DNA of 64,000 nt. Source: Paramacrobiotus metropolitanus (Eukaryota > Tardigrada > Eutardigrada > Parachela > Macrobiotidae). The position numbers and the translations under genes are program-made. Under the pieces are notes generated by a model. That model did no database searches, was not told the DNA's origin, and saw only the letters and a program-made list of their open reading frames with translations. Of the stretch, positions 14,691 to 51,798 are shown piece by piece (within the stretch, counting starts at the first letter, position 1; the number at the start of each line of letters is the position of its first letter). The DNA is taken from positions 1,054,001 to 1,118,000 of the forward strand of contig NW_026570225.1 in NCBI RefSeq assembly GCF_019649055.1, read 5' to 3'.

Positions 14691-15920
14691 CCACCGGATC
14701 CTTTGAGGAGACGGTAAAGGCATAATTGGCGGAGAACTCGAAGAACCCGTGGTTGAAAACAGATTGACTGCGAACGCAGCCTCTGCTTCAACCTGGTCTT
14801 TGCTGTCTTGCGACTGTGGTAGCAACAGGTTGATCGCAAAAGCGATCCCTGTCACCTTCGCTTGCCCTATCTTTCGCCTCTCCCACACAAGGAGAGCAAC
14901 TCGGCTGACTGCCCCAGACGGACGAACGGGAACTTCCCCACCGCAACTGACGGGACAGGCTCAGAAGGTAGCCTGCAGCGCGCAAGGATCCTCCCAACAA
15001 TCGGGGACCTTCTCCTTGAACGGAGACCCGCAACTTTAACAGCGGAATTCGACCTCCCAACAGCGGATCACCGACCTCCACGGATACCGTAACAAACCGG
15101 TAAAGTCCTGGTTACAGGTCGTTATAGGTCGAAAGGAGTTACAATCCTTACTTTCTAACGGCTAAAAGTAATTTCTAACGAAGAAATTTTACTTTTCTAC
15201 GGTTAAAAGTTAATTTTTGTCGGAGAAACCGACCTACAAAGTTACTTTTACCGACCTAACGGACCACTCTGTGTAACTGACCAAAGGGCGGTCATCCTCT
15301 TACTTGTTTGATTTGACGGATTTCCCACCGTCAGAAAAATTTCTAAAGGACCTAGAAATTATTTCTAACGGTTGGAAATTAAAATTTCGACCAGAAAACA
15401 TTTCTGATCGACCTAAAAATAATTTTGTTTTTCCGCGAAAATAAGCGCGAAAATCAACGAACTTCCTTGTGACGTCAGAACGCTCGATTTTCAGTACTTT
15501 GAGGCTAGCCAATCAGCGTGCAGGGGAAACTTCCCACAGGCTTAACATAGGCGTGAATCATCATTTTTTAAAATTTTGCACGCGGCTCGCATTCTGTGAC
15601 GTAGGCAGTGAAGTGCAAGACCACTTAACCCTGTGACGTCATACTGGTCAGCACAGTAGTATAGGACGTACTCAACTGTAGTACCTTATCATACTGTACG
15701 GTACCATAGTACTGTATTGTAACGTTGTGTACTGAGTCACACACAGACACATCAACAATAACAACAACATCAAGTCGGATCATCCTGACCCTCGGAAGTT
15801 CCTGAACCAAAAGACGTTCCTGATTCAATTGAACATCCCCACATAAGGGATTGTTCAATTTACTGTGCAACAGCACAAGTCTCTCGTCGGTTCTACTCGA
15901 ACGGACCTGACCCGACAACA
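14691..15920 (+). other. long untranslated leader of the giant element, rich in hairpins
   Basis: About 1.2 kb between the PBS and the first ATG. No ORF looks real. The part at 15140-15430 has several small inverted repeats, for example AATTTCTAACGAAGAAATT, GTCGGAGAAACCGAC and AATTTCTAAAGGACCTAGAAATT. One hairpin of the shared-loop family is at 15836-15850 (TCCC-CACATAA-GGGA). Such a leader would normally hold the packaging and dimerisation signals. Confidence 0.6.
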
Positions 15921-18787
15921 ATGTCGAACCCGAAGAAGAATGAATACGCCCGAGAGTTTAACACGGACTATTCGCGGCGCCTGACCTCAACCGCGCCGTA
16001 CTCACTTCGGCACTCCGGTCAGGATAAGAGTCAGCCGTCATCAACGGACTCAACGAAGTCGGTCGAGGCACGGGAGAAGCGTAACGAGCGGATCCTCCTC
16101 GCCGATTCCAACCCGACGTCGGATGACAGCTTCGAGGACGCCCACGATAAGACGTTCCTCGAGCCCAAAGCTGACTCAGCAGCCCCGTCCCACCCGACCG
16201 GGGGGGGGGGGAATCGGAGAAGCTGCAGGCTGAGACCACATTGTCTCATGCCGAGGCGGAACACCCACATGGTGTACCGACCTCCCTGGACTCAACAGAA
16301 GGACCTCAACTGAGCTCACAGAAAGCTCAGGAGTCGGTAACGACCATGAAAGTCACCGACTCTGGACGCAAATCACCCAACCAGACGGATAATGCGAAGA
16401 TGTCGACCTCGCCCAACTCGGGTAAAGCGACTTCACCGACCTTGAAGGTCGGGAGGCAACCGATAACAGAAATCGGTCAAGTCCAACCGACAACAGAAGT
16501 CGGTAGGGCTTCACCAACCTCAAAGGTTGGCCAACAGACACCGGCCTCGGAGGTTGGTTATCCTCAACCAGACAGGATGGAAGGTCAATCGTCACCAACC
16601 AAGGACGTTGGCTACCGGAGCAAGGAAGTTGGTATAATCCAACCGACCACAGAAGTCGGTAGGGTTTCACCGATCAATCAAGTCGGACCACTTCCACCGA
16701 CCAAGGTCGGTCAACAGAAGCCGACTACTGAGGTCGGACCTCACCCGACAACACAAGTAGGAACTGAGGTCGGACAACAGTCGCCAACCAGGCAAGTTGG
16801 TCAAGTACAACCGACCTCCCTGGAACAGAAGCCAGTGGATAACAGATCGGATAAGGAAGTCCAGCCGACCAAACTAATGGTCAAAACGGGAGAAACCGAG
16901 GCGCCACCACGAAGTGGACCTTACCCAGCTGGATCACCGACCAACATACCGATGCCTAACGAGAAGGCTATCTCACCGCTGAGTCGACCTTCGCCAACAG
17001 AAGGCAGGTCGACCCGAGTAACAGAAGCTCAGCCGAAGGTGAAATCGGACAAGTCGCCAACAAGTCGACCTGTCGACTTACTGAAGAAGCAGTCGCCACC
17101 AATGTTCGAACTCGGCGACTCGGGTAGTGAAACGCCACCACCCATGGATGACGTTTTCGACAAAACGATAATGTCACGTCCCAACACCAAGGATGGATTC
17201 TTCCGAACGCCAGTGGCACCCCACTTGGGTAACCATAGGTACCAAGCAAGCACGCTTGAGTACACGGCACGGAAGTGGATTGCATCCACACCTCCAGAAA
17301 AGATCGAAGACGTTGATCGACTCAGGAAACGATGCCAGGATCTGATAACTCAAATCATCCTGGCTAACCAAATCGTTCACTCGACGGAGAGTCAGATGTC
17401 TCGGTCGGAGGACACCCACAAGCTTGAACGAAGGCGATGGGAAAAGGAACTCGCTGAAGCCAACAATGGCATAGCCGCTCAACAGCGCCGGATAGAACAT
17501 CTGGAAAGCCACCTCAAGAGGTCCGACAACCCATGTCGGTACGACTTTGAGGAGGTTGGACGACTCAGAAGTACACTTGCGACGTCGGTGGAATCGGTCT
17601 TTGAACTTAGAAGACGGCTCGCCACCGTGGAAAAAGACCTGGCTGACACACAAACAGCCTTGGTTGAATCGGAACTGGCAGCAGGGACATTCCACCAACA
17701 GCTCAATCAAGCCAACGAAGAGGCTGAAGTGTACCGGAACGAGGTCGACAGATACATTGTCGAACTCAAGCAGGCCGATGACGAGGTCGACCGGCAAAGA
17801 CACCGTATTGAACAACTCGAAACGGAGATGGAAATTCTCTTGGCCAGGGCAGGACGACAGTTAATGGCTCACTATAGCCAGCAACCTGCCTCACCTGACC
17901 AAAGTAGAGCCATCACCGACCTGGAACAAGCAAACGCCCAACTGGTCGACCAGGTCTACGGACTTAACGATGTGCTGAAGGAGGAACAGAGACTCCGAGC
18001 ACAGCTGGAACACAGCCTGGCGGAAGCCCAGAAAGTGTATGAAGCGCAACAGAATCGCATCACACACTTGGAAATCCGCGAAAACGACCTGTACAACTAT
18101 GGTCTGGATGCGGATAAATATATCGATGACTTAAATCGATATATCGACGAGATGACCAAATACACCGATGACTTGGATACGGAGGTACGGTGCCTCCAGG
18201 AGGAAACAAAACACCTGGAACAATCCAGGACGGAACCTCCATCTTACAGGACTTCGATGGCAACGGATTTCCACTTTGAACCGTCGCAAACTGTTCGAGA
18301 TATCCTGTGGGACATCCAACCTAAGGAGCAGAAGAAGAATCCGACCTTCTTCATGGGTGTGGTGACAAATAACCCACTCACCGGAACTCCACCGCAGCAA
18401 CAGCCTCTGCCCCTCCGTTCAGAACCGGAACGGAATACCTCGACTGCGGCACCACACGTGCCAACGTCAAACGTGCCGACAACGACGACGGCCACGTCAG
18501 GTACCTACACCAGTACCACGTATGCAACTCACACATCGATGCATGCGCCAGCGCCCACCACGTCCCACCCGAAGGGACCAACGCCTAACCAATGGGGCGC
18601 AGGACGGCGACTGGGAGAGCGAACAGGCTCACATCCAAACTTGGATGACTACGGACGCTTGACGATAAGCGACCCCGACTATAAGCGGACACGAGCCAGG
18701 TCATACAATAATGACCTTCCTCAAGCAGGACAAGGCGGACAACCGAATCCGGAACGTCCTCCCGCTACTCATCCGGAAGATCCTTAG
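15921..18787 (+). CDS. ORF1: coiled-coil protein upstream of Gag, interrupted by a G-run frame break
   Basis: ATG at 15921 opens the first long frame of the element. After about 93 codons it reaches 12 consecutive G (16200-16211) and then reads out of frame to a stop at 16313. The frame one base back is open through the G run to TAG at 18785, so the two parts form one gene of roughly 950 codons broken or recoded at the G run. The middle part (16400-16850) is a Pro/Thr/Gln-rich repeat of PTTEVG-like units. The C-terminal half (about 17290-18220) is a long heptad-like coiled coil rich in Glu, Arg, Leu and Gln, followed by a Pro/Thr-rich tail. No known domain is recognised. Position before Gag and the coiled coil suggest a structural role. 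It ends at a single UAG with the same frame open into Gag. Confidence 0.7.
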
Positions 18788-20344
18788 TACGCGCCTCGGT
18801 TCCGACCCACAGAAGGTCGAGTACCACCAAGAAGGCCGTTTAGAGGCCAGTATGGAAGAGTGAACGACCTTCCAGCTGGATTCTACCAGCAGCCACAACG
18901 GCCCCCACGAGCACCAGCTCCTCAGCCGGAACCATACTCGGCCGGATATCCAGACCAACAAGGTCGGGGATACCAAGACCAACAAGGTCGGGGATATCCA
19001 CAACAACAGAATTATGGATACCCGGATCAACAGTATCAGTACTATCCTGACCAACAAGGTCGGGGATACCCGGAACAAGGTTGGGAAGCAAACCCTCCCC
19101 CACCGCCTGCCATGGACGCCCAACAAGCGGCTAACCGGGCATTTCAGGAAACAATGATACGTGTATGTGCCCGCGGACGCACACAGAAACTGCCGGAATT
19201 TGACGGTGACCATAACAAACTTGAGGGATGGTTAAAACAAATCCGTCGATTCTACGCAGAAGCACAGGAATGGCATGAATCGGATCACACATTCATGACT
19301 GACCTCATCTCGCGACTCGAAGGCCAAGCCGCACAATGGCACAGAGACACCGCCGGCAGTGAACCAGCCGGAGGATGGCCAGTCAACCTTTGGTTGGCTA
19401 AGTTCGAAGAGCGGTTCGGAGACAAAAACAAGGAAATCAACGCCGTAACCGCCATGGCCAAACGAAAGTACCGCTTTGGACAAGAGACGCCGGAACAGTA
19501 CTATGACGCCATGATGAACATCAAGTCCCGATGCGACACCATAACGGATCAAATGGCACTCTTTCACTTGAAGGATAACATCCATGAACCCAAGTTACGA
19601 GAAGCCTTGGAGATCCGTATGCCGGCAACTCCGGTAGAACTGCGCGACTACATACGCCAGTTCGTAAACGGAAAGGAGATGTACGACGTGGTGAAGGGAT
19701 CACGGGATACAGACTATGCCCGGGTCCGAGCAACAACGCCGACACCAGCTCCTTTACCGCAGGCGCCAGTACAAACAGTGTACCAGCCATACATGATGCC
19801 GGGATACCAAAGTCCACCGGCAACGTACGTGCAACCGTCCGTACCAATGACGCCACCTGCGCAAATGGCGCCGGTCCAGCAACCGACCTGGGCCGGAGTG
19901 GCGGCTGTCAACGTGGCAGCACCCCAACCAGTAGCCGGAGCCCCAACAAATAACTACGGAGGCCCAAGTCCTGGCTCTGAAGGTAACCAGAATAACGGAA
20001 ATTCTGACTATAACCAAAACGCAAACCAGGGATACCCCGCTTACGGTCAGAATCCCACACAAGGATTCGGCGGCGGAGGTTATGGTCGCGGAAAAGGACG
20101 TGGCGGCGGAAATCGCGGTCGCGGTAACCGCGGCGGAGGCGGAAACCAACAGGGTAACCGACCTTCCCAAGCACAACAGAGTGCTCGGCAATTCACTACC
20201 TACGCGGATAAGATGGAACAACTGTTCCTTCAATGGACGCTAGCGGACAGCTTCACTTGCCACTTTTGCAAGTTCGGGAACCACCCCCAGGCACGCTGCG
20301 CGTTCATCGGCACTCGGGTACAGGACAACCCGAATCGCCGCTGA
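18788..20344 (+). CDS. gag: Gag (capsid and CCHC nucleocapsid)
   Basis: The frame is the same as ORF1 and opens directly after its UAG. No ATG sits near its start, so synthesis by readthrough, or from an unseen start, is plausible. The N-terminus is Pro/Gln/Tyr/Gly-rich with repeats of YPDQQGRG. The middle, counted from the GTG at 18860 (about residues 110-270), is a retrotransposon Gag domain (LPEFDGDHNKLEGWLKQIRR, then the WLAKFEERFGDKNK block). A Gly/Arg/Asn-rich RGG-like stretch precedes one zinc knuckle, CHFCKFGNHPQARC, which fits CX2CX4HX4C (Cys467, Cys470, His475, Cys480 on that count). Gag forms the particle and binds the genomic RNA. It ends in UGA at 20342 with the frame again open beyond it. 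Confidence 0.88.
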   Translation, partial: YAPRFRPTEGRVPPRRPFRGQYGRVNDLPAGFYQQPQRPPRAPAPQPEPYSAGYPDQQGRGYQDQQGRGYPQQQNYGYPDQQYQYYPDQQGRGYPEQGWEANPPPPPAMDAQQAANRAFQETMIRVCARGRTQKLPEFDGDHNKLEGWLKQIRRFYAEAQEWHESDHTFMTDLISRLEGQAAQWHRDTAGSEPAGGWPVNLWLAKFEERFGDKNKEINAVTAMAKRKYRFGQETPEQYYDAMMNIKSRCDTITDQMALFHLKDNIHEPKLREALEIRMPATPVELRDYIRQFVNGKEMYDVVKGSRDTDYARVRATTPTPAPLPQAPVQTVYQPYMMPGYQSPPATYVQPSVPMTPPAQMAPVQQPTWAGVAAVNVAAPQPVAGAPTNNYGGPSPGSEGNQNNGNSDYNQNANQGYPAYGQNPTQGFGGGGYGRGKGRGGGNRGRGNRGGGGNQQGNRPSQAQQSARQFTTYADKMEQLFLQWTLADSFTCHFCKFGNHPQARCAFIGTRVQDNPNRR

Positions 20345-20638
20345 TACGAGGATTGGCATACGCGATACCTGACGGGAGGATCGTTGGGTTCGGCCAACCC
20401 GAACTCGGCACAGATCGTGCCACCCCCGCGCCAACGCCAACAAGGAGGAGGCTCGGGCGGCGCTGGTAACGGAAACCAGCAGACCGGCTCAGGAAGTGGG
20501 TCCGGCGGAAATCGCAGGTATAGCGGGGGTCAACAAGGATCCCCGGAGCAGCGGCAACAGTTACCGCCACATCAACCCTTTGGCGCGCCGTCACCCAACA
20601 ACGGGCCGGCTCGGGGAAACCCCTCGGAAAACGCCTAA
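20345..20638 (+). CDS. in-frame extension after Gag, Gly/Gln/Pro/Ser-rich
   Basis: 98 sense-frame codons continue the Gag frame after the UGA at 20342-20344 and end at TAA 20636. The sequence is low complexity with stretches of GGGSGGAGNG and SGSGSGG type and has no ATG at its start. It may be the C-terminal tail of Gag reached by readthrough, or Gag tail cut off by a point mutation in this copy. A GGGTT/AACCC inverted repeat lies about 40 bases after the stop. Confidence 0.5.
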   Translation, partial: YEDWHTRYLTGGSLGSANPNSAQIVPPPRQRQQGGGSGGAGNGNQQTGSGSGSGGNRRYSGGQQGSPEQRQQLPPHQPFGAPSPNNGPARGNPSENA

Positions 20639-20643
20639 GGTAG

Positions 20644-22446
20644 ATGAGCTCCGGTGACTCATTCGACCTGCGACATCCCACCGAACCACCGGACAAGGAT
20701 AACATTACTAACCAATCGTACCTTAACCGGACATCACCGGAACCCACAACAGAAGGGGTAGACATCCAACGGATGGATGCATTGGTCACACAATTTGGTC
20801 TGAACCATAACAGTACGGAAGAAGAGTTCGTGAACGCATTCTCGGCTTCAACAGAAGAAGCCACAATGGCCAGAACAATGGCAGAACGACTTGGAATTTT
20901 TGTCAACAATGGCAAAATTGAGGTCCGGACCGGAACGCAACGAATACCCGACCTACCTGACCCAGCGCATCAACTTGGCGTTGGAACGTCAGAGGTCGGA
21001 ACGCAAGAAATGCTCGACCCACGCAGCACAAACAATGTGACTGCGCCGCCCGCCACAGAAAGTGACGCAGGACGGACCGGCCACGAAAGCTGGACCGGAC
21101 TGCCGGTGAGAAGAAACTCAACCGAGCAGCCCAGACAAGGGCCAAGACGCGGAGGACCGGGACGCCGATTCACGCAAAGGGGCAACAGAAACTACCCCCG
21201 AGTATCATCCGCACGCGCAACGGATCGATACGCTGCGACGATGGCAGCCATCGACCTCACCGAAAAACCGGAAGGAGAAGTCGAAATATGGGAAGAAGTC
21301 CCACTGGAAGCACAGGTACCCACTTACTCTCGGCCGGAGCAAGCGGACCTCTTCCAACCTCAACCGGCAAGAACTGTAGCCGGATCTCGGACGTTCGTAA
21401 ACTTCGATTACATGTGGTCACAATTGAGGCCAACAGAAGCCCCGATGCAAGATCGGATACGAGAGCAAACACGACGGTTCGAAACCACCGACGTGCTGGA
21501 GGACGGAGTAGCTAACCGAACTCAGGTGCAGGAAGTGGTCACAGCCGAAGTGCAACCGACTCAAGGTACGCTGACGCCAACAGAAGGCGAACCAGTTTCC
21601 TTAATCCCCGTCACACCGACAGTACGGGAAGTCACCTTCGAAAAAGGGACTCACAAGAAACCAAAGACGGTCAGAGCCTGGACACACGCAATCCAGATCG
21701 GACCAACGCCCACAATGGCGATGCTCGACACAGGAGCGGAGACTTTGCTGATCGAACAACGGTTTTGCGAACAAAACAACCTGCCGATACAACCTCTCGG
21801 CCATTACACTCGGATACTTGGCGTAGGCGGACAAGTTGCCTTCACCGTAACTCACTGTTGCACCGTACCGGTAACGCTGCAGGGATTTACGAGCCATCAC
21901 ACTTTCCACGTTCAACCGGATAACGCGGACATCCCAGTGTTACTTGGATGCGATTACCTTCATTCCAAGTTTTCCTTCGTGCTAACGCCCATTCCTAATC
22001 CAGAACGACCTGGAGGAATGACGGTAGTGCAGTCTATCCCGATACCAGAGGCATCGGGCACGGTAATAAGTGAAGCAAGGATAAGTCGGCTTGATCACCC
22101 GTCAAACCCCCCGCCCAACAACATTTGCCGTGACTGCCGGGATACTAACCGTACTCTGACCGAGGAAATGCAACTGCACAACGCCATCGAAGCGTACGAA
22201 GAGAGGATACGGACCGGAAAACTACGTCCGCAGAAACGCATACTTAAGACGGTAGTCAGGTCTATCCCGATACCAGAGGCACCCGCCACGGAAGCGGATG
22301 CCACCTTAGAAGTCCAACAGAAGTATCGGACTTGGTTCACGGGAATTCAACATTTCCTCAACCGACGGACGTTGGAAATGTTGGCCACTCTGCAACAGAA
22401 CGGAGCGGTAACCACTGACCAGATACAGGAAGCACAACGGACATGA
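20644..22446 (+). CDS. pro: protease-containing ORF
   Basis: ATG at 20644 follows the previous TAA by five bases and lies in another frame. Of the 600 residues, the first 340 are polar and unrecognised, with a short Arg-rich patch (RRGGPGRRFTQRGNR). The retropepsin-like domain spans about residues 345-450: catalytic LDTGAETLLIE (Asp362, Thr363, Gly364) and the C-terminal IPVLLGCDYLHSKF, which is the usual ILG-type motif. Cleaves the polyprotein. The last 130 residues contain two copies of a SIPIPEA motif. Ends in UGA at 22444, with the same frame open downstream. Confidence 0.82.
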   Translation: MSSGDSFDLRHPTEPPDKDNITNQSYLNRTSPEPTTEGVDIQRMDALVTQFGLNHNSTEEEFVNAFSASTEEATMARTMAERLGIFVNNGKIEVRTGTQRIPDLPDPAHQLGVGTSEVGTQEMLDPRSTNNVTAPPATESDAGRTGHESWTGLPVRRNSTEQPRQGPRRGGPGRRFTQRGNRNYPRVSSARATDRYAATMAAIDLTEKPEGEVEIWEEVPLEAQVPTYSRPEQADLFQPQPARTVAGSRTFVNFDYMWSQLRPTEAPMQDRIREQTRRFETTDVLEDGVANRTQVQEVVTAEVQPTQGTLTPTEGEPVSLIPVTPTVREVTFEKGTHKKPKTVRAWTHAIQIGPTPTMAMLDTGAETLLIEQRFCEQNNLPIQPLGHYTRILGVGGQVAFTVTHCCTVPVTLQGFTSHHTFHVQPDNADIPVLLGCDYLHSKFSFVLTPIPNPERPGGMTVVQSIPIPEASGTVISEARISRLDHPSNPPPNNICRDCRDTNRTLTEEMQLHNAIEAYEERIRTGKLRPQKRILKTVVRSIPIPEAPATEADATLEVQQKYRTWFTGIQHFLNRRTLEMLATLQQNGAVTTDQIQEAQRT

Positions 22447-23649
22447 GAACCTGTAATAGCTCTCACCGAAGACATCGATGATGAGGCTTGGGAATGGGAA
22501 GATGAACGAGTCCCAATTCACCGGCAGTACATGGAATACGGACTTCCTGTACCACGCCCTCTGGAGATACCCTACCAAGAACTGGGCGGAGCACTCTTCA
22601 GTTACATGCGACAAGTACAGTTGTATGGAGAATCCACAACATCTGCGTTTTGGAAACGGTACGGCGAGGATACCTCAATAACAAGGAAGATCCCCGACCC
22701 GTTACCGGCAACAATGGAACACTCACCGAAGGATGTGAAGTTTGTCAACAGTCTACAGAAACCGACTGAAAACACGCAAATCGGCGAAACTGACCGACCA
22801 GAATGTTGCATAATTTGCAACGACAATATTGATGGAGTCATCCGGACGCTGAAGACCCATCATGACCTGACTTGGGTTGACGGCAGACCGTCGTCACCGG
22901 CCCCTCCGCAACCAGATCGGAAGGTAAACTCAAGCCGGAAAACTAAATTAGTAGCTAACCATTGGCTGAGCAACATAAGCTCACAGCCATCCGACCTGGA
23001 GAAACAGGAAGGAGAAAGTCGACCGACCCAACCGACGGATACGGCCGACCTACCGACCTCAGAACTCGCAAAAAGCAATGTGCCACCGACCACAGAAGTC
23101 GGACATGGTAACATGCCAGAGGTCGACCTTGAAAGTGGATCAGCCATAGAGATCGAAGACTACGATTCGGATGGCTCGGACGTACAAAGTTCGAGTGATT
23201 CACCGGACACGGGCTCCGATAATGAACCTTCGGAAGAATCCGAAGAGGATGATGATGAAGAATTCGACCCGTCAGTACGGAACTGTAGGTCGGACAAACC
23301 GCGGAATGACGACTCGGATGACTCTTCCGAGGAGGATGAAAAACCGACCTATGATGTCAGGCTAACAAAAGCATTGCGGTCCATCATCCATACTGAACTT
23401 ATAGTCGACACTCCTCCGGAACAAACCGGACAGGAAAAGCCAGTCGATCCCGAGCAACAAGCGGAACTGGAACAACTTCAAATTCTGAGAGAATTTGGAG
23501 GAGGTGAACCGGAGAAAGACGATCTCCGACCTTCGACGATAGTAGTCCAGCAGTTGACAACGGAACAACCAACATCGGTTAACTTGACTGACCAACAGAA
23601 GTCGGAGCAACCGCGCCCATTGCAAAAGTTAACTCAATTACGGAGCTGA
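22447..23649 (+). CDS. unrecognised acidic ORF between protease and RT
   Basis: It continues the protease frame after the single UGA, so it may be the C-terminal part of the same protein. The first methionine is at 22531. About 400 codons. It holds a possible zinc motif, CCIICNDN (CX2C) followed by a His-rich THHD, then a long disordered and strongly acidic region rich in Asp, Ser and Glu (about 23150-23350). No known family. Its last 58 bases overlap the RT frame, which is one base back, so a -1 frameshift is the likely link to Pol. I see no canonical slippery heptamer in the overlap. Confidence 0.55.
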   Translation, partial: EPVIALTEDIDDEAWEWEDERVPIHRQYMEYGLPVPRPLEIPYQELGGALFSYMRQVQLYGESTTSAFWKRYGEDTSITRKIPDPLPATMEHSPKDVKFVNSLQKPTENTQIGETDRPECCIICNDNIDGVIRTLKTHHDLTWVDGRPSSPAPPQPDRKVNSSRKTKLVANHWLSNISSQPSDLEKQEGESRPTQPTDTADLPTSELAKSNVPPTTEVGHGNMPEVDLESGSAIEIEDYDSDGSDVQSSSDSPDTGSDNEPSEESEEDDDEEFDPSVRNCRSDKPRNDDSDDSSEEDEKPTYDVRLTKALRSIIHTELIVDTPPEQTGQEKPVDPEQQAELEQLQILREFGGGEPEKDDLRPSTIVVQQLTTEQPTSVNLTDQQKSEQPRPLQKLTQLRS

Positions 23650-28251: not shown

Positions 28252-28332
28252 GGCCATAGGCGTAACTTAGAATAAGTTATAGTCATAGGTAGCTTAACAG
28301 TAGCTAGGTATAGGCCGACCTTTGGTGTCGAA
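28252..28332 (+). other. short untranslated spacer after integrase
   Basis: 81 bases with stops in all forward frames, rich in TAG/TAA words. It separates the pol region from the accessory ORF block, which starts with a proper ATG at 28333. It could hold an internal translation start signal or be spliced over; nothing more can be read from it. Confidence 0.5.
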
Positions 28333-31737: not shown

Positions 31738-32991
31738 CCACGAAGGTTTACGCCCCGGAATACTCCAACTAAACCAAAGCAGACCCCGGAGGAGATGGAC
31801 ACAACGTCTCCGAAGCAGGTCGGACTTGAATCACAAAATGAATCGACCTCGGAACCAGCCAAGTTGGTTATTGATGAATCTCGAACGAACGAACCGGCAA
31901 CAGCTCCGGGCAAGAGAAGCAAGAAGAAGCAGCAACCGGCTGAAGACTTCTCGCGCGAATTTCACGATGACCCGGCCTTGAAGCATGTTCAGGACCTGAC
32001 TAGGTCGGAACAGGACGTGAGCGTTGACATCGCATTTCCAGAGGACAAAGAACTCTGGAACTCACTTAAGTCACGTCGCGCTAGCCTCGTTGGAAACACC
32101 GACGCAGTTCGTAAGGAACATGAACGCCTTACGCAGAGGATGGCTGAGGTCATGAAACGAATGGGAGAACGATTCCGAGCGGAGAAGACCCGACCTGCGG
32201 CACAACAACAGGCTGCTACGACTCGGCAGAAACTCTTCGCACAGGACCCGAAAACGACCTCCACGACAACGCGTCAACTGGTCGTCAAGATGAAGAATCC
32301 CCAACCAGTAAGGGAACCTTCCGTGCAAATCCAGGACGAACCGTTACTGGACTCGAAAGTGATTAACTCGGCTAACTCGGCTAAGTTATCACGGAGGGAA
32401 AAGAAGAAGGCCAAGAAAGAGGCCAGAAAGGAAGCCGAAAAGGAGGCAACCAAGGAACCTCCAAAGGAACCGACCAAACCCAAATCGGATACATCAGTCA
32501 AAACGCCGAAACCTAACCCGGCCAAACGACATAAATCCTCAGACGACCTTGACACCTCCGACGCTGGCCCACATAAGCCGGACAAGGGGAACGCCAAGGA
32601 GGAGTACGATTACGACGCAGCCAAACAACGGATGCGAGAACTGATCGCTAGAGCAGGTACGATGGCAACTAAAACAGAGGCCGAACGACCACACGAAAGG
32701 TCTAAGCCGACGCCTAAGCCACCTGTCAAAGTAGCGAAGCTTCTACGTCCAAGAAAGACTCGGACGACGGATCAGAAAAACCTTCGGAACCCGATGATGG
32801 AATCTCCGACCATGGGGAAGCCGATCCGTACGAAGGATTTAAAGGCGATCGGAACGAAGAATGGAGTCACGAAGAAGACACTGACGCTTCCGAATGGCCA
32901 GCCCCTGATGACGTACGTCAGCGGCTACCCGACGCTCAACCTGGCGACCGACCAGTCGGATTCCATACAGTACGACTTCACGTCGAAATAG
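31738..32991 (+). CDS. accessory ORF C, highly basic, in frame with ORF B
   Basis: 417 codons in the same frame after TAG 31735; ATG at 31795. The protein is very rich in Lys, Thr, Pro and Arg, with a nucleolar-type stretch of alternating KK and EA residues (about 32390-32460) and KKNGVTKK-like patches, so binding to RNA or DNA is possible. A short helical region lies near 32080-32200. No family recognised. Ends in TAG at 32989, again with the frame open on the other side. Confidence 0.55.
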   Translation, partial: PRRFTPRNTPTKPKQTPEEMDTTSPKQVGLESQNESTSEPAKLVIDESRTNEPATAPGKRSKKKQQPAEDFSREFHDDPALKHVQDLTRSEQDVSVDIAFPEDKELWNSLKSRRASLVGNTDAVRKEHERLTQRMAEVMKRMGERFRAEKTRPAAQQQAATTRQKLFAQDPKTTSTTTRQLVVKMKNPQPVREPSVQIQDEPLLDSKVINSANSAKLSRREKKKAKKEARKEAEKEATKEPPKEPTKPKSDTSVKTPKPNPAKRHKSSDDLDTSDAGPHKPDKGNAKEEYDYDAAKQRMRELIARAGTMATKTEAERPHERSKPTPKPPVKVAKLLRPRKTRTTDQKNLRNPMMESPTMGKPIRTKDLKAIGTKNGVTKKTLTLPNGQPLMTYVSGYPTLNLATDQSDSIQYDFTSK

Positions 32992-34989
32992 TCCGAAGCG
33001 TCAGGAACGCCCGAACAGAAGGCAAAGATGTCTATCAGTTATGGTACGCGACCTCTCGACCAACTTAAGGATCGTAGGTCGGACCTCACCTTGGCTTACA
33101 CAGAAACTTATGATGGCAATAGTGGCATGGGCTTTGGACTTCGGATTAGCCGTAGCGGTCCACCGACAATGGGGACGGATCGCCGAGCTGATCGCACCCG
33201 ACATCATCCAGAAGCTCAAAAGTGCCACAGCCAGAAATCAAGACGACCCCCGACGAGAATCGTAAGATGCATCGGATACGCCAGAAACCCTCGCGGATCC
33301 TCCCTACTGCACATCGCCCGTATATACAACGTGATGTACGAGAACAGTCAGGGAAACATCGATGTAATAATGGACCTCTTACGACCCGTCATCGCAACGA
33401 TGGTGGCGGAATTTTCTCTTCAAACGATCAACGCGGAACGCGACTTGCCACTTCGGTACACAGTACCTCGGTTCATACCGGAACAGCAACGACGCGACTT
33501 CAAACTCCGGATGTCCTTCTTTAATCGACAGCGCTCTCCAGAAGGTACCGAAATGACCGTTGAAGAATACAACGAGACGGATGAACAACCATCCGGAGAA
33601 GCGGCGGATATGTTGAACATTGCACGAGCATCTGGTATGTCGTCACAGAAACGACTACCAATTAACCGACCTCGGGCACCGTTCGAACCGGCAACGTATG
33701 TCAACACCGCCCCGGCACCAGGACGAGCAAGTGCGACTAAGGCAGGTCGGACCACAACAGGACGCTTTGCCGCGAGAGATACACAATCTCTCCCACCGGC
33801 CTCACCGATGGAAATTTCCCCGGCTCCGGAAGGTAAGACTCCACGGAAGAGTCAACCTAAACCGGCCAAGTCAACAAAGAAGTTGGCGAAGACCAAGGAA
33901 AAGACGCCCTCGGAAGAGGAAGACGAGGACGAAGAAGATGAAGATGAGGACGACGACTATCAAACACCAAAGGGATCGGAAGATGAGGATGATGACGATG
34001 ATCAACCTCCACCGGCTTCGGCACCCCAACAGCAGAGTGAACCGGAGATTTCCGACAGTCAGAATGACCCACCGGCCGATAACAGCAACGAAGCCGATGA
34101 GCCGATGGAAGAAGATAGTGGTGACGTCTACGTTCCTCAGAATTACCGTCAACAAGTACGGCTAACACCAGATTCCGACCCGAATCAACTCCTCACGGAA
34201 TGGAACGAGGATACTCAGGAACTCTTACCGAATGAGATTCCGAGACTACCAACTGTAAACGTCAAGTACCTGAAGGTAGCCACCAAACGTGCACACACCT
34301 TACCCCCACGCGTCTCGGAATACCACCCGGGATGGATGTATACCTTCGCGGCTTTAAAGGCCCTGGCGACCTGTGGACCGAAGTTTGCGACACCGAAGAA
34401 CGCATTTCAACTCCTTAGGCACCACAAGATCGGCGACATCGGTGGAGGTTGGAGGCAACTAAGCCAGAGCAACGTATACCGGTACTGTAACCTTGGGTAT
34501 AACGAAAGTAAAATCATACGGACATATACCAGCACCAAGCGCAAGTATTACGAGTTCCCACCGGAGAAACGAGACCCGGCGCCGACCACTTACGAAGGTT
34601 GGGTACATGCCATTGAAGCGTGTATGGAGATGTCGTGGCACCCGGTAGGATTGACCCGCGGCGAAATCTTACACCAGCTGGTCGCTCGGTTTGAATTTGG
34701 CTGGGAAGCCGAAAAACCTCAGCTAGTCGACCCGAAGTACAAGCCCACGAACAGAATTAAGGGAGGCGAAAAGTACATGCTGGGCGACGACCTGGACTTC
34801 GTCTTTAACAAGGGATTCTTCCAGAAGAGATTTGGCATCAACCAGACTCGGGAAGGCGAACGATACGAAGCCCTTAAACCATCGGTACATCGATACGGAC
34901 ACTTACCGAAGCATCCACCGACCTTGGAGCAACAGAAGGAGTCAACCGACTCTCTCCAGGTGAACCGGGTGGAATCGACGAACGGATGA
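32992..34989 (+). CDS. accessory ORF D, in frame with ORF C
   Basis: Same frame as ORFs A-C; ATG at 33028, 653 residues, stop TGA at 34987. The part at 33100-33240 is Arg/Pro-rich in this frame, but another frame there encodes a plausible amphipathic helix (MAIVAWALDFGLAVAVHRQW), so two compensating indels may have occurred. The middle is disordered, with a long run of Asp/Glu at about 33915-34000. The last 220 residues look globular, with aromatic and charged blocks such as GWMYTFAALKALATCG, RQLSQSNVYRYCNLGY and HPVGLTRGEILHQLVARF. No family recognised. Confidence 0.6.
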   Translation, partial: SEASGTPEQKAKMSISYGTRPLDQLKDRRSDLTLAYTETYDGNSGMGFGLRISRSGPPTMGTDRRADRTRHHPEAQKCHSQKSRRPPTRIVRCIGYARNPRGSSLLHIARIYNVMYENSQGNIDVIMDLLRPVIATMVAEFSLQTINAERDLPLRYTVPRFIPEQQRRDFKLRMSFFNRQRSPEGTEMTVEEYNETDEQPSGEAADMLNIARASGMSSQKRLPINRPRAPFEPATYVNTAPAPGRASATKAGRTTTGRFAARDTQSLPPASPMEISPAPEGKTPRKSQPKPAKSTKKLAKTKEKTPSEEEDEDEEDEDEDDDYQTPKGSEDEDDDDDQPPPASAPQQQSEPEISDSQNDPPADNSNEADEPMEEDSGDVYVPQNYRQQVRLTPDSDPNQLLTEWNEDTQELLPNEIPRLPTVNVKYLKVATKRAHTLPPRVSEYHPGWMYTFAALKALATCGPKFATPKNAFQLLRHHKIGDIGGGWRQLSQSNVYRYCNLGYNESKIIRTYTSTKRKYYEFPPEKRDPAPTTYEGWVHAIEACMEMSWHPVGLTRGEILHQLVARFEFGWEAEKPQLVDPKYKPTNRIKGGEKYMLGDDLDFVFNKGFFQKRFGINQTREGERYEALKPSVHRYGHLPKHPPTLEQQKESTDSLQVNRVESTNG

Positions 34990-35231
34990 GGAGACGTGAA
35001 ATACGTCGAAGGAGTCGCAGAACCGACCTCCTTCATAAGTGCCACATAAGTACTTATGATTACCGACCTCCTCTTGGACACAACAGAATGTCCCGACCTA
35101 CCTCAATAGGCACCACATAGTGCCTTGGACCAGCTCGAGAACCGACCTGGCCCGACCGTTGTAATTATAGGGTGTAACATTTATAGGATAACGAATCCGA
35201 GAAACGGATCGTTTAATTTTTCTTTTAACAG
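34990..35231 (+). promoter_or_regulatory. spacer ending in a strong 3' splice site
   Basis: No ORF. It contains two hairpins of the shared-loop family, 35076-35093 (GGACA-CAACAGAA-TGTCC) and 35109-35124 (GGCAC-CACATA-GTGCC). It ends in TTTAATTTTTCTTTTAACAG at 35212-35231, a long pyrimidine-rich tract followed by AG, which is rare in this A/C-rich element. The next ORF is open from exactly this AG. This is the sequence pattern of a spliced subgenomic mRNA. Confidence 0.65.
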
Positions 35232-37370
35232 CCGCGAACGGAGGCGTACACGACGGACTGCCGACATTGCAGAGAAAACTCAACTCCGCAGGGCAACAGA
35301 CTCCCATGCGCGGACTGCATAATTTTCTTTTCGGACGAACATACCCCACAGGTCGGACGCCGTGACGCGACGCAAGCAGCGGCTTTGTACATAAACGTCG
35401 TCGCTGGAAACATTAGCGCATACCGACGCTTGGCTCGCAGCGAACGCCTGATTAACCAGTTACGGGCCTACGAACAGGATCACTTGTCGGAAATTCAACG
35501 CAACCGCGCTTCCGACCCTGGATGGACTCACACGGCACCACCGGTACTAACTAACCAACTTCTGGAATACCGTCAGCAACAGGACCTGAGGCGCCAGGAT
35601 GAGGACCGTGCGAAACTTAAGGCAGTCAACGAAAGAATTGCCACAATGAAGGTCCATCCACCACCAACGAAGCATGAACCGGAAATCACTGTTCGGTTAC
35701 AGCAGCCCACAGAAGGCCGCACAGACACGGAACAGGTGATTCACGACGTTCGAGAAGTAATAGTCGGAGACATCCACCGACCTCTACAAACCGCGTCAAT
35801 CCAAATGATGATGCGACAGGACGACGGAACCATGAAGGTGGTCACCCTTTACCCCGCAACGGAGGAACAGATGGCAACGATCCCACAGAAGGTCGTTCCA
35901 GTGGTTACGCAAACCCAGCCTTCAGTTCCCCAGCAGATTCTTCAACCTGGACCTTCGGCACAACCAGTTGCCCCGTCGACGACTCAACAGCAGCGCCGAC
36001 CTGCCAAACCACTGGCCGGACATGACCTTCGCCATAGGCTCGGACACGATGCTCGACATAGAATCGAGGAACGACGAGCCTCTGCCGGACAGGGCAATAG
36101 TGAAGCGACTAGACCTTCACCTGGAAAACGGTCAAGTCCGGAGAAGACAAGTATGGGACTGGTTGTCGACTCAACTAGCAAGTCGAAACGGAACTTTGTC
36201 CCACCTGAACAACAACAGGAACCGGAAGCCCACATGGCGGAACCGGCAGATCAACCTGAGGGAATGGATGTTGAAGTGGCAAATCAGATGGCTCCGATGC
36301 CAACAGTGCAAGTGCCAAGCCAGGACGACCCTCGCTACGACAACGCCCGACGACAGGGAGTAGAAGTCGTTATGCCACATCCGAACGAACGGACGAATTA
36401 CATCATGAATACTTTGGGATACGAGGAACAACACCGACCAAACATTTGGCGGATGGTAGAAAACCTGCGTCAGTTCCTCATCCGATCTGGATTTCAGACC
36501 CGATTCCAACTGAACAATTGGATGGGTGAGTTCAACATGAACGACCATCCTAATGTCGACCACCCAATCAATCGAGCAAACGCCTTGCCAGCGGTGACTG
36601 ACCCGGCACTGTTGGACATACCTCTGTCCACACCGGAGAGGACGAGTCTAAGTCAACTCGGACCTCAGGAGTACTCGCGCGATCAACTGGAGAGCGTGGC
36701 TCAGTTTGTCATCACCGACGCCCACCCGGCATTTGTCATCGCAGCAGCTCGAGCGGCCCTGGACCTACTGCAGTACCTGCCGGAAGAAGAACCAGGACCG
36801 GAGGACCATAACGCAACCATTTTACGGTATATCTTCGCAGCAAGGTTGGGCAACTACTTTTGCCATTACACCCTGTGGGGAGCACGCCGAACCGGCCATA
36901 TACCACCAGAACTCGACACAGTCGTCGCACAACTTGGCTCACCCATGCGAAGCATCATCTTGGCAGTTTGGTTACGCGACCTCCTTTACATACAGGAACG
37001 GCACGCGTCCAGGTACGCCTTTCGAAAGGACTTTAAAGACCCTGATGATGATGCGGCTGAATTCGTAAAATGGTACCGAGAAGAAAAGGCACTACCTAGC
37101 GGATTCACCTCGAGACCGTACGGAGAAGGGATGTCGGACGATTTGGCACCCGGCGCAGTACCTAACGCGCAGAAACTCCGTAGGAAGGTCCAGAAAGCCA
37201 AGAAGGCGCGAGCGGAACATCCCGGCCAGGAAGATACTCCCCAACAGAGTGGGCAGGCAACGTGCAAACCTGAAGTCTTCCGGCGCCTTGGTCGACCACC
37301 GAAACCTGACGACGAAGATGACGAGGACTACTTCGGTGGAGACCCGCCGATCTCAGTCCCCTTGGGATAA
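35232..37370 (+). CDS. accessory ORF E: zinc-motif protein starting at a splice acceptor
   Basis: The frame is blocked by TAA in the pyrimidine tract (35226) and is open from the acceptor at 35231 to TAA at 37368, 712 codons. There is no ATG in its first 100 codons, which fits a start codon supplied by an upstream exon. The first 32 residues contain CRHC and, 13 residues later, CADC: a CX2C...CX2C zinc-ribbon or treble-clef-like pattern. Next are a charged helix, a Gln/Pro-rich linker, a Met-rich part, and a C-terminal globular domain (about 36360-37130) that is mainly helical (IAAARAALDLLQYLPEE, RYIFAARLGNYFCHY). The end is Lys-rich with an acidic tip. No family recognised. By position it corresponds to env in retroviruses, but it has no signal peptide or membrane anchor. 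Confidence 0.68.
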   Translation, partial: PRTEAYTTDCRHCRENSTPQGNRLPCADCIIFFSDEHTPQVGRRDATQAAALYINVVAGNISAYRRLARSERLINQLRAYEQDHLSEIQRNRASDPGWTHTAPPVLTNQLLEYRQQQDLRRQDEDRAKLKAVNERIATMKVHPPPTKHEPEITVRLQQPTEGRTDTEQVIHDVREVIVGDIHRPLQTASIQMMMRQDDGTMKVVTLYPATEEQMATIPQKVVPVVTQTQPSVPQQILQPGPSAQPVAPSTTQQQRRPAKPLAGHDLRHRLGHDARHRIEERRASAGQGNSEATRPSPGKRSSPEKTSMGLVVDSTSKSKRNFVPPEQQQEPEAHMAEPADQPEGMDVEVANQMAPMPTVQVPSQDDPRYDNARRQGVEVVMPHPNERTNYIMNTLGYEEQHRPNIWRMVENLRQFLIRSGFQTRFQLNNWMGEFNMNDHPNVDHPINRANALPAVTDPALLDIPLSTPERTSLSQLGPQEYSRDQLESVAQFVITDAHPAFVIAAARAALDLLQYLPEEEPGPEDHNATILRYIFAARLGNYFCHYTLWGARRTGHIPPELDTVVAQLGSPMRSIILAVWLRDLLYIQERHASRYAFRKDFKDPDDDAAEFVKWYREEKALPSGFTSRPYGEGMSDDLAPGAVPNAQKLRRKVQKAKKARAEHPGQEDTPQQSGQATCKPEVFRRLGRPPKPDDEDDEDYFGGDPPISVPLG

Positions 37371-37524
37371 CAGGTTCCCACATGCGAACCCGAGTCCCCC
37401 ACTTCAACAGCAAGGAAGGGACACTAAGCCGAGAAACGGCAGAGTCGAGAATCGACCTGGCAGAGATCCTGCCCAGCTGAGAAACAGCACCGTCAAGAAA
37501 TGACGTGGAAACATGGAACGGAAA

Positions 37525-37886
37525 TTTTTTTTTTACATTTTCTTACAGATCCTAACAGCAGATGTGAACCACGAATAAGCCAGAAGAGCCAACCACATAA
37601 GTTGGCCGGATTCTTCGGTCAGACCCGGAAACGCGTGGTCAAGACCTGGGTGTTCCGGTTCTTTCACCGTACCGGTACGTCCCCCGAGGAATCCCCTGGA
37701 ACGAACTGGGCAACCGACCTCAGTTCCCCAGCATGGCATGAACAGATCGACAACCACATCTACTTTGACCGGAGACAACAGACGCCCCGGCCTGCTAACA
37801 TAGCATATCGTGAACCACGCTCTGCTACCGAAGAAAATTACTCCGGCCAACCGACTCTGGAGTACAGACCGAGAGGATTACGCTAG
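37525..37886 (+). CDS. small ORF F at a second splice acceptor
   Basis: A tract of ten T, then ACATTTTCTTACAG, ends at 37548 and is a second strong 3' splice site. The frame reading DPNSRCEPRISQ from 37548 stays open to TAG at 37884, about 112 codons. The product is Arg-, Pro- and aromatic-rich (KTWVFRFFHRTG) without recognised domains. It includes a shared-family hairpin at 37588-37606 (GCCAAC-CACATAA-GTTGGC). Coding status is uncertain because composition is biased throughout this element. Confidence 0.35.
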
Positions 37887-38560
37887 CATGGTGCGAAACA
37901 CGTCTCTGCGCTTGTTTCACACCGTGTTTGCCTGGCACCCGTGGCCGACTTTGGGACCGGGTAACCGACCAGTAACTTTCGTCACCGCAGACAGTGGTAT
38001 CCTCATCGGTTTGGAATGTCACATGGTTCGGAATTGACCACAGAAGTCAAAACCGACCTGTTACGACATGCATGGCGCATTGGATTAATTAAAGGCAGGA
38101 GCGAAGAACCGGATTCCCGCCCAGAGACCTAACTCCGCAGATTGCGACTTTAACCATGTCTCGCTACCTCAGTTAACCACAGAAGTTGACCATTCCCGAG
38201 GAAGCCAAACTAAGAAAGGAAGTGGCTCAGACCGTGCCACAGAACCTCGATCTACTACATTTGTTGACCACGGAAGTCAACCAACCTCAAGGTAGAACTC
38301 GGACCTCCTCGTTACGACTCGGATAACCTAGTCGACCACAGAAGTCGGTGAAGTTCTAACTTTACATCCGAGGAACGAGCTGTGGAAATACTCCGGCAAC
38401 CGGACTCCGGAGTAGAAACCAGCGAGGATTCCGCCAGCATGGCCCGGAACACGGCATTACGGCGTGTTCCAGGCCATGCTTGCCAATGCACCCATGGCTT
38501 ACTCCGGCAACCGGACTCCGGAAGTAAGAACCAAAAGCCGGTCGACCGCAACAAGGCGGA
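37842..38560 (+). repeat. diverged direct repeat in the 3' region
   Basis: The segment 37842-37943 (CTCCGGCCAACCGACTCTGG onward) is related to 38388-38495 (CTCCGGCAACCGGACTCCGG onward), each followed by an AGCATGG...GAACACG block. A third partial unit starts at about 38501. Each unit opens with an inverted repeat, CTCCGG...CCGGAG. This is an old internal duplication inside the untranslated 3' part of the element. Confidence 0.6.
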
Positions 38561-41168
38561 CTGTGTCAACTATGACCTGCTACCTAGAATCGACCACAGA
38601 AGTCGACTTGCCAACGGTAGCCGACCTTAGAAATGTTACCACTCGACCAACTGACGTCGACCTGAGGGAAGCATACGGAAGTCACAAGTCGGATAGCCTT
38701 ACGGCAACCTCTACTGACCACAGAAGTCGGTAATGTTGACCGCAGACCGCGGCATCTAACCACGATCTTAGTCTGGGCGGATTCTCCGTTTGAACCCAGA
38801 CCTACAGGCTCTCAACTAGGAACCTGTACCCGGAGTCCAATCGCAGTCTCCCCCGGAGGATATCGGATAAACCAACCGATTCACCGGTGACCACGACTAC
38901 GCGCGGCTTGACCGTGCTGCCATTACCTGAAGAGGAACAGCGACGGTGATTTGGCTACTGGTGTACCAACGACTCCGCCGCGACCTGCTTCCCCATGTCT
39001 TAATGGAACATCCTAGGCAAACCGTGTTAGAACACACGGCTTGCACCCCCAGACAGACCCCACCCCGGACGTGTGGCGTCTTTCCCCAACAGAGGTGGTA
39101 AGGCGTCACAGGTTCGCGGAACGGAATGAAGAAACTTCAATCAGGGAACGAAGATCTGATTCTACCTCAGTTTGCATGCTGCATGGGGATGGGAACGGGC
39201 AATCTGACATAAGTCGGGGCCCGAGGCACAACGCTGCCGAGGCGCGAGAACCGTACGCCGGTCTGAAACCAAAGAGTCTGTCTTGTGGAGTGGGACCACA
39301 GAAGTCCCTTGATGCCACAAGCGACCTGGATTGCATGCTGAATGGCCAACAGATGCCATGGAATTGCCGAACTCGACGGAACTTGGACCCGTCCAGAGGC
39401 AAAGTTACGGACCCGAACCAGGGCATGTTAGAGGCACGGGCCGGATCACCGCTCCAAAACAACTTTACGGAGCCTGGACGGACGCCCAGAGGCTTAAACC
39501 GACCTCTTGACGGACGGAACCGACCTGGATGAAGAATCACCGACCTTGGGTTGGATAACATTATGTCCGACCTCAGGTCGGATAAAGTGGAATAACCGAC
39601 AACAGGTCGGTCATGAGGAATCATGGGATCACCGACCTCAGGTCGGATAACGTAGTAACCGACCTCGGATCGGACATGTGAAGTAACCGGCAACAGGTCG
39701 GTGGATGGACACACCATCTAAGAGGATTACGGAAAACGACTTCCGGACGGAAAGAATCGACCTCAACCGACCCGGGATTTGGAGTAACCGACCTCCAGTC
39801 GGATAACATTATTACCGACCTCAGGTCGGATAACCGGTCCAACCGACCACAGAAGTCGGTTAGCAACGCCGGATCGTTCGGATTCGCTTGGAACATCAGC
39901 GGATTAGCCGAAATACGACCCTCGAACGGACCAGTCACGTGGTAACCGACCTCGAGTCGTACATACATCAGGAACCACCGATAACAGGTCGGTGAAGGAT
40001 CATCAAATTGAAGAACGGAATTGGAAACGACCTCGAAGTGGACGAATTCGACCTAACGGGACTTGTTTGGCCCCACATGGGCCTAAATAACACGAGTTAC
40101 CGAGGTCGACCATGGAGGTGCGTTATCACCGACCTCAGGTCGGATAACATTGTGACCGACCTCAGGTCGGATATCCATCTCAACTGACAACAGGTCGGAT
40201 GACAACAGTGAATCATCAGCGGATGGACGGAGCAACAAATTCCGACCGGACCCTCGAGCCAGTTCGCCTCGGAAAAGTCTTAACCAGGCTCGTGGTAGCA
40301 GATTTAACGGGTTTTAACCGACCACATTCCATCGGCATTACCACTTGGCGACCACATAAGTCGCATGACACAAGTACGGTTTTGTCCGACCTGAACCTTT
40401 GGAATTCGGGACTTAGCCGAACTCCCTTGCCGCCGGCTAACTTACCGGTAGGCCGACCTTGGTCCGATGACCTTGGTCCATTCCCCTTAATTAGAGAGGA
40501 TGCTTCGGCATTCGCAACAGCGACAGTGCCTCTCTCTCCGGAACGGATGAATACGAGTCGGACGTAAGTGTCAGCCGTGCTTACCCGACCTCGGACGAAT
40601 TTACCGGTTACGTTAGGTAACCCGGGAACCGACGCCCCGGACCCGACACACAGGACTGCATTTAGACAGGAGACCCCGTGGAAACTCAAGACCCGTGGAC
40701 GTCATCCTAGTCGGAATAAGCCCCCGGACAGATCTCTTTTTAGTATTTTTATACACTTTCTAACAAATGGAATTGTATTTTACTTAGAATCTCTAACCAG
40801 ATCTGTTTGCATTTACTTTTTGCTCACTGGAATTGTGATTAAACTTTATTACTTTTTACTTCGCGCTGTTTAACCGTCATTACACTTCTCTTTTACTTTC
40901 TCCGCGAGCCAACAGAAGCAAGATGCCTGCCAACAGAAGCGAAACCGGTCCAACAACAAACCCCGAGCGGCTTCCAGATTTGCGGCCGTGAGTTGCTTGC
41001 CTCTCATGGGTCTGGAAGTGATGGATGGGACGGTCAACAGGACACCGGACTCCCACTGGAAGAGGACGCGTACCGGCGACCCCACATGGGTCGACCGGAG
41101 AGGTGCGATCCTGGTGCGGTACTGAGTCGGAGCATCCTCGCAGGAGCTCGGATTCCCGCCCAGAGGCA
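37887..41168 (+). other. 3' untranslated region of the giant element
   Basis: 3.3 kb without a convincing gene. It is rich in shared-loop hairpins (for example 38034-38050 TTGAC-CACAGAA-GTCAA and 39292-39308 GGGAC-CACAGAA-GTCCC) and, from 39567, in near-perfect palindromes. A 163-codon frame at 39041-39532 and a 101-codon frame at 40568-40873 exist. The second ends in two similar hydrophobic stretches (FIHFLTNGIVFYL and IYFLLTGIVIKLYYF), but its start is of ordinary biased sequence. AT-rich DNA at 40735-40865 precedes the LTR. There is no clear polypurine tract just before the 3' LTR. Confidence 0.55.
39567..40198 (+). repeat. array of 15-nt palindromes CCGACCTCAGGTCGG
   Basis: The exact sequence CCGACCT-C-AGGTCGG occurs at 39567-39581, 39632-39646, 39815-39829, 40129-40143 and 40156-40170, usually followed by ATAAC. 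Between them are variants such as CCGACCTCCAGTCGG, CCGACAACAGGTCGG and CCGACCACAGAAGTCGG (39843-39859). The last two exact copies recur at +2930 in the tandem duplication. Spacing is irregular (about 25-300 bases), so this is a dispersed array and not a satellite. Confidence 0.85.
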
Positions 41169-48035: not shown

Positions 48036-48107
48036 AAACGTAGCAAATCGCATCTCAAACGCTGTGTATCTCAAACGGTGACCTTTATCTTATGCGGGGT
48101 GATTACT

Positions 48108-50854: not shown

Positions 50855-50855
50855 A

Positions 50856-51782: not shown

Positions 51783-51798
51783 CTCGAGTTTGGGGTTT

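Follow-up and report, generated by a model that had tools for sequence, protein, structure and literature searches.

A giant long terminal repeat (LTR) retroelement of the tardigrade Paramacrobiotus metropolitanus carries, on its sense strand only, a dispersed family of short hairpins in which the loop is nearly constant and the stem changes freely. The window analysed here comprises 64,000 nt of contig NW_026570225.1, and the carrier is a 27.4-kb Ty3/gypsy element at 14221-41629. Both strands of the window were scanned for the loop (C/A)ACA(G/T)AA. Of its 82 occurrences on the plus strand, 24 are enclosed by a Watson-Crick stem of 4 bp or more; of its 24 occurrences on the minus strand, none is. 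The 24 sense hairpins span 15835-43294, the one at 43278 being the tandem-duplication copy of that at 40348. A sequence-only reading had proposed such a family, with all loops on the sense strand. This strand bias is borne out by the scan, and 13 of the 14 hairpins it listed were recovered at their exact coordinates; the fourteenth (35076-35093, with an 8-base loop) is likewise present. The hairpins are spaced at about one per kb along the whole RNA, in coding and noncoding parts alike (Table 1). Rfam 15 gave no match at gathering score in 14000-46500.

Base composition does not account for the hairpins. Order-3 Markov redraws of 15801-42937 yielded on average 0.10 hairpins (maximum 2 in 300 draws) compared to 23 observed. 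Synonymous-codon shuffles of the open reading frames (ORFs), which preserve codon usage and protein sequence, gave a mean of 1.2 and a maximum of 5 (400 shuffles) compared to 18 observed for loops (C/A)AC(A/G)NAA. Ranking all 5-base loop cores of the window without a prior motif placed ACAGA first, with 14 of its 85 occurrences in hairpins (P 2e-18), while in pooled host flanks the same ranking brought no core to a P below 0.003. All 30 hairpins of a selected set (A1) have a pyrimidine-purine closing pair. A more permissive scan, in which AC(A/G)NA may take any place within a 5-9-base loop and stems have 5 bp or more, revealed 45 sense and 1 antisense hairpins in the window element and 258 versus 6 in seven copies; two sets of host flanks were balanced (7 versus 7 and 3 versus 3). 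Thus, the expected surplus over composition-matched sequence and over the host flanks was found. The proposed loop (C/A)ACA(G/T)AA stands as the main class but is too narrow as a full definition, since (C/A)ACGGAA loops belong to the family as well; some loops have 8 bases.

The hairpins might be a by-product of coding, namely of a repeated peptide P-T-T-E-V-G, or might represent small mobile palindromes. Indeed, the commonest stem in the first ORF is read in one frame and encodes repeated T-T-E-V-G, and the hairpins at 26149 and 35033 lie in regions of insertion or deletion between copies. Nevertheless, the core is read in all three frames (9, 4 and 3 of 16 coding hairpins), noncoding hairpins are frequent, synonymous shuffles fail to produce hairpins, and orthologous stems differ by paired substitutions. 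We therefore give this explanation hardly any credence, and the earlier statement that the loop is not a protein motif is upheld.

The analysis was extended to other copies in the same genome, where a search with the protease region gave at least 70 matches, from 40 scored candidates. Sixteen copies or pieces (214.8 kb) were scanned for loops (C/A)AC(A/G)NA(A/G) with stems of at least 4 bp; pieces were trimmed where the element end is known, and the near-identical copy C76 and the short loci L001-L008 were left out. All 16 carry hairpins, in total 253 in sense and 0 in antisense orientation, totals that are not independent counts because the copies share ancestry. Lineage A comprises the window element, C176, C163 and C86 (copies 84-95% identical to the window), lineage B comprises C268, C13 and C43 (about 75-77% identity) together with C2, C14, two copies on C15, C7 and C1. 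Sense and antisense hairpins amount to 104 and 0 in lineage A, 103 and 0 in lineage B, 13 and 0 in C25, and 33 and 0 in elements lacking pol.

The two lineages use different loops. Ranked without a prior motif, the top core is ACAGA in the window element, C176, C163 and C86, compared to ACACA and ACAAA in C268 and C13, and ACAAA followed by ACACA in C43. In lineage A, the loop ends with A in 102 of 104 hairpins and 103 of 104 are closed by a pyrimidine-purine pair. Lineage B has G as its last loop base in 90 of 103 hairpins; this G can often pair with the initial C, and the pair beyond is free. Position four of the core is G in 77 of 104 lineage-A hairpins and either A or C in 77 of 103 lineage-B hairpins. 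According to these differences loop and closure changed together, giving a code pyrimidine-(C/A)AC(A/G)NAA-purine in lineage A and mostly C-ACA(A/C)A-G in lineage B.

Two stem-plus-loop patterns were counted genome-wide. The pattern CCGACMACAKAAGTCGG has 184 matches (103 + 81) and CGACCACAMAGGTCG has 481 (233 + 248), versus 0 and 1, respectively, for the same patterns read backward, which are perfect hairpins of identical composition with stem and loop reversed. The Watson-Crick-only GTCAAC/GTTGAC version of the hairpin at 38172-38190 is present at 18 other genomic places. Among the CCGACMACAKAAGTCGG matches listed, 90 of 100 places have an element match no more than 25 kb away, and the strand agrees in 90 of 90; some of the element-search queries behind this proximity count themselves hold such hairpins. 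One of the other ten places was examined and is an element.

A host RNA-binding protein could read the loops for control of localisation, translation or silencing, and the motif is short and simple, of the type that many RNA-binding proteins read. We consider this improbable, as the 90 of 100 places that adjoin an element match do not suggest that host genes use the motif widely, and two element lineages in the same host differ in their loop code.

Stem compensation was tested on the inner five pairs of orthologous stems, after removal of control hairpins overlapping motif hairpins. Full pairing survived 56 of 169 distinct stem changes in motif hairpins and 144 of 939 in controls; where both sides of a cell had changed, pairing held in 205 of 245 and 430 of 668, respectively. 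In the leader hairpin at 15835, three pairs are changed on both sides among 8 sequences, a count that leaves out C13 (shortened end) and C268, whose imperfect leader stem falls below the alignment margin. In the hairpin at 19988 within the Gag-like ORF this applies to two pairs among 9 sequences, without L004 (shortened loop). Both were picked as good examples among five aligned hairpins, the others being those at 16310, 37588 and 20057, and the formal count covers these two. Folded alone, five of six pieces were better than shuffles (z -2.0 to -4.5). The proposed covariation of the stems is supported between copies by compensatory changes above the level of control hairpins.

Mobile palindromic insertions, considered above, do not fit most alignable orthologues, which differ by substitutions rather than clean insertions (exceptions 26149 and 35033), in a comparison in which many lineage-B orthologues gave no alignment. 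A DNA-binding palindrome such as a transcription factor site was discarded because the stems vary freely and the asymmetric loop does not.

The hairpins are also kept by elements reduced in coding content. A 12.2-kb element (C5:528506-540704, L034) has identical LTRs (447 of 447) and no tblastn match to protease, reverse transcriptase or integrase. One of its frames, of 618 amino acids, is similar to Gag (51%) and includes a CCHC knuckle. Counting stems of 5 bp or more, the element has 19 hairpins on the sense strand and 0 on the antisense strand. Copy C76 is 99.7% identical to it and diverges just past the 3' LTR, as seen in the downstream flank; it therefore seems to have been inserted independently. 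On C41, a more distant relative shows 75-79% identity over the parts that match, and an 8-kb piece of it carries 11 sense and 0 antisense hairpins. For these pol-less pieces the Markov expectation is 0.4 (maximum 2 in 60 draws) compared to 30 observed. Elements in which tblastn gave no match to the accessory ORFs 28333-35385 likewise keep their hairpins. In a 9-kb piece on C25, in which the N-terminal part of the reverse transcriptase runs straight into ORF 35385, 12 sense and 0 antisense hairpins were counted; no match to RNase H, integrase or the four intervening accessory ORFs was obtained there. The 12.2-kb element belongs to a non-autonomous LTR family of about 12 kb (L033, L026, L034, L035, L036), with its own Gag and no match to protease, reverse transcriptase or integrase. 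Because the LTRs are identical, this family is judged to be recently active.

Taken together, the constant loop, the free but paired stem, the restriction to the sense strand, the spread over the whole RNA, the retention without pol and the lineage-specific code argue for sites that act at the RNA level. The RNA-level function suggested beforehand is strongly supported by these features together with the surplus over codon shuffles and the genome-wide counts against backward patterns. We favour, with about even confidence, the view that the hairpins are dispersed cis-acting protein-binding sites, most likely read by Gag, for packaging or condensing the giant Ty3/gypsy RNA. A short stem of almost any sequence would present the fixed loop, an element-encoded RNA-binding protein, most likely Gag, would read it, and many weak, interchangeable sites over 27 kb would let Gag pick out and condense the RNA during particle assembly. 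A switch of the loop between lineages in one host suggests a reader encoded by the element. Gag would be the most economical one, because elements without pol retain Gag as well as hairpins and need to be packaged in cis; the presence of hairpins in elements that encode Gag and no protease, reverse transcriptase or integrase favours a putative role in Gag binding or packaging. An RGG-like stretch and a CCHC knuckle in the Gag-like ORF are further points in favour of Gag. If Gag is the reader, such sites could explain selection and condensation of a 27-kb RNA.

Several observations weigh against Gag-read packaging sites. The exact loop class of the window is rare in lineage B, with 0-2 per 7-10-kb piece. 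The zinc knuckles do not sort with the loop type, C13 and C43 having lineage-A-like knuckles and lineage-B loops; therefore another part of Gag or another protein may hold the specificity. Retroviral packaging signals usually reside in the leader, but the leader of the window element (2 hairpins in 1.6 kb) is not especially hairpin-rich relative to the 3' tail (8 in 3.8 kb). Between copies many stems are lost, 113 of the 169 distinct motif-stem changes breaking at least one pair, and control hairpins too remained paired in 430 of 668 double changes. One of the six folded pieces was no better than shuffles (z -0.59), the inner register favoured by the leader hairpin when folded alone is offset by one base, and fourfold (synonymous) sites in the stems are too few to judge conservation. 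As individual hairpins are often lost, the set as a whole seems to be under selection more than any single site.

The loops may instead bind an element-encoded or host export or stability factor, as a multi-site analogue of Rev and the Rev response element (RRE) or of CERV of Cer1, shielding the 27-kb unspliced RNA from splicing or nuclear retention. The very long RNA with its many ORFs, some of them accessory, under purifying selection and without known domain, would suit such a factor, and in Cer1 a protein of the element is required for export of the genomic RNA, as far as the parts of that report consulted go (PMC10309623). The sites are spread along the whole RNA, however, rather than forming one response element, and elements without a match to accessory ORFs 28333-35385 keep their hairpins, although a factor could act in trans. 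A compact multi-helix response element like Rev/RRE was not found, the hairpins being dispersed, and multi-site export is still compatible with this arrangement. We regard the export explanation as unlikely. That the hairpins serve reverse transcription, or the cDNA while it is single-stranded, through pausing, strand transfer or nucleocapsid annealing appears very improbable. Hairpins are kept in elements that need mobilisation in trans, and a loop restricted to one strand of RNA would be present on one strand of the DNA, too, but no data point to this role specifically, and conserved loop letters would be unexpected for mere pausing.

Table 1 Hairpins and coding features of the window element (stems and loops as stem-loop-stem; ORF, open reading frame; Ka/Ks, ratio of nonsynonymous to synonymous substitution rates)
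Feature	Position	Strand	Remarks
5' LTR (ATGTTAG...GTCACA)	14221..14663	+	GTTA just before
Leader hairpin ATCCC-CACATAA-GGGAT	15835..15851	+	outer stem with bulged U; covaries in other copies
Coiled-coil-like ORF, P-T-T-E-V-G-like peptide repeats	16241..18787	+	coiled-coil match weak, below cut-off; Ka/Ks 0.22-0.37
CTGAGCT-CACAGAA-AGCTCAG	16310..16330	+	
ACCGAT-AACAGAA-ATCGGT	16459..16477	+	
ACCGAC-AACAGAA-GTCGGT	16486..16504	+	
ACCGAC-CACAGAA-GTCGGT	16642..16660	+	
CGACC-CACAGAA-GGTCG	18803..18819	+	
Gag-like ORF	18860..20344	+	capsid-like region, RGG/GRG-rich stretch, one CCHC knuckle; Ka/Ks 0.11-0.18
Gag-ORF hairpin CAGAAT-AACGGAA-ATTCTG	19988..20006	+	covaries in other copies
ORF with retroviral-type aspartyl protease	20644..22446	+	Pfam
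GGCTTC-AACAGAA-GAAGCC	20844..20862	+	
CGCC-AACAGAA-GGCG	21575..21589	+	
TGAGC-AACATAA-GCTCA	22967..22983	+	
CCGAC-CACAGAA-GTCGG	23086..23102	+	
Reverse transcriptase and RNase H	23652..25990	+	two overlapping ORFs in the window copy; Pfam
Integrase ORF	25915..28251	+	Pfam
GTAC-CACAGAA-GTAC	26099..26113	+	
CGAC-CACAGAA-GTCG	27902..27916	+	
Five accessory ORFs (28333, 30547, 31795, 33028, 35385)	28333..37370	+	
GAGGAT-CACAGAA-ATCCTC	28611..28629	+	
CTCAT-CACAGAA-ATGAG	30067..30083	+	
GGAT-CACATAA-ATCC	30323..30337	+	
GTCGT-CACAGAA-ACGAC	33639..33655	+	
TCATAAGTGC-CACATAA-GTACTTATGA	35033..35059	+	10-bp stem, one G-U
GGACA-CAACAGAA-TGTCC	35076..35093	+	8-base loop
AACGATC-CCACAGAA-GGTCGTT	35876..35898	+	8-base loop, one G-U
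GCCAAC-CACATAA-GTTGGC	37588..37606	+	stem GCTGAC/GTCAGC in copy C268
TTGAC-CACAGAA-GTCAA	38034..38050	+	
GTTAAC-CACAGAA-GTTGAC	38172..38190	+	one G-U
CGAC-CACAGAA-GTCG	38333..38347	+	
TCGAC-CACAGAA-GTCGA	38590..38606	+	
TACTGAC-CACAGAA-GTCGGTA	38712..38732	+	one G-U
GGGAC-CACAGAA-GTCCC	39292..39308	+	
AACCGAC-CACAGAA-GTCGGTT	39841..39861	+	
GCGAC-CACATAA-GTCGC	40348..40364	+	repeated at 43278-43294 in the tandem duplication
3' LTR	41168..41629	+	GTTA just after (4-bp target-site duplication)

The 5' and 3' LTRs of the window element are a few substitutions and some insertions or deletions apart. Pfam matches in the order protease, reverse transcriptase, RNase H, integrase correspond to the Ty3/gypsy order. 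Directly 3' of the 5' LTR, where a tRNA primer binding site would be expected, the sequence is TGGTAAGCAGA, which may resemble an initiator-methionine primer binding site. The Gag and capsid assignment was made by eye and from position, without a Pfam match. In copy C86 the preceding ORF (16241-18787) is fused in one frame with the Gag region. The P-T-x-E-V-G-type repeats of this ORF are in part encoded by the hairpins themselves. The five accessory ORFs have no Pfam match; Ka/Ks, a rough count in which some copies carry stops and the row 25056-25987 is excluded, ranges from 0.09 to 0.48 in rows of more than 100 codons and is 0.69 in an 89-codon row. By these ratios the accessory ORFs are under purifying selection. 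Predicted structures of two of them, from shallow alignments, reached a mean predicted local distance difference test (pLDDT) score of 34 and 35, too low for the models to be of use.

No relative of the reverse transcriptase/RNase H piece was found in a viral contig collection, none of the integrase in a general genome contig collection, and none of Gag at E 0.001 among 7186 candidates of a protein collection. Relatives of the reverse transcriptase elsewhere are generic gypsy matches, the best on a spider contig.

The 3' end of the element, its LTR and flank are part of a 2.9-kb tandem duplication (40007-42922 and 42937-45852, 99.9% identical, 14 bp apart), which is either a recent duplication or an assembly artefact. 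A degenerate tandem array of about 50-bp units (45914-46365, 8.8 copies) follows just downstream of the duplicated end. Further downstream, a DIRS-like element was recognised by eye between short repeats (47823-52278), with a reverse transcriptase ORF (49133-50854) and a tyrosine-recombinase-like ORF (50856-51782), whose best matches beyond its own protein are from the tardigrades P. metropolitanus and Hypsibius exemplaris.

In the literature searched, with most subscription papers outside its scope, no LTR element is described with such a hairpin system, and the earlier remark that no such retroelement was known is uncontradicted there. It is possible, if somewhat doubtful, that this is the first LTR retroelement with genome-wide loop-coded assembly signals, in which the element's Gag, or another of its own proteins, reads one code, the sister lineage in the same animal reads a shifted one, and relatives with Gag only are packaged by virtue of the code they carry. 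If so, a retrotransposon would offer a natural and particularly clear example of packaging-signal-mediated assembly, and the code switch would keep two co-resident element families apart. Genome packing by many specific dispersed contacts is a debated idea, for which weak motifs of small viruses have supplied most of the arguments. In the tardigrade elements the sequence by itself gives a strong signal (253 versus 0 by strand), superimposed on protein-coding information, and dozens of genomic copies, two loop codes and elements without protease, reverse transcriptase and integrase serve as natural replicates. The dispersed-contact idea thereby becomes directly testable with short RNAs and one protein.

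Burro of planarians (over 30 kb) and Ogre of plants (16-25 kb) are likewise giant Ty3/gypsy-like elements with extra coding regions; they reside in other hosts, and a dispersed hairpin system is not mentioned in the parts consulted of PMC6431247. Cer1 is an LTR element whose own protein (CERV) acts on its genomic RNA; the consulted parts of PMC10309623 do not mention an RNA hairpin family. Retroviral and Ty1 packaging and dimerisation structures are stem-loops of the genomic RNA acting in packaging, as proposed here, but in the consulted parts of PMC5454406 and PMC5035970 they are described for the 5' part of the RNA, while the tardigrade element has about one per kb throughout. By analogy, the nearest described principle is packaging-signal-mediated assembly. 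Single-stranded RNA viruses (MS2, satellite tobacco necrosis virus, picornaviruses) and hepatitis B virus (HBV), according to the consulted parts of PMC6281560, likewise have many genome-wide stem-loops with a shared motif and variable surroundings; in the HBV pregenomic RNA the loop motif is RGAG (PMC7612645, consulted in part). The authors of PMC6281560 expect this mode of assembly to be widespread and name Gag-like proteins as a possible further case. The tardigrade element shares genome-wide stem-loops with a common loop motif and variable stems whose pairing is kept above controls, albeit with much loss. It differs from the viral packaging signals in that simple statistics suffice to reveal the loop, the carrier is an LTR retroelement with a putative Gag reader, and two codes are present in the lineages of one host.

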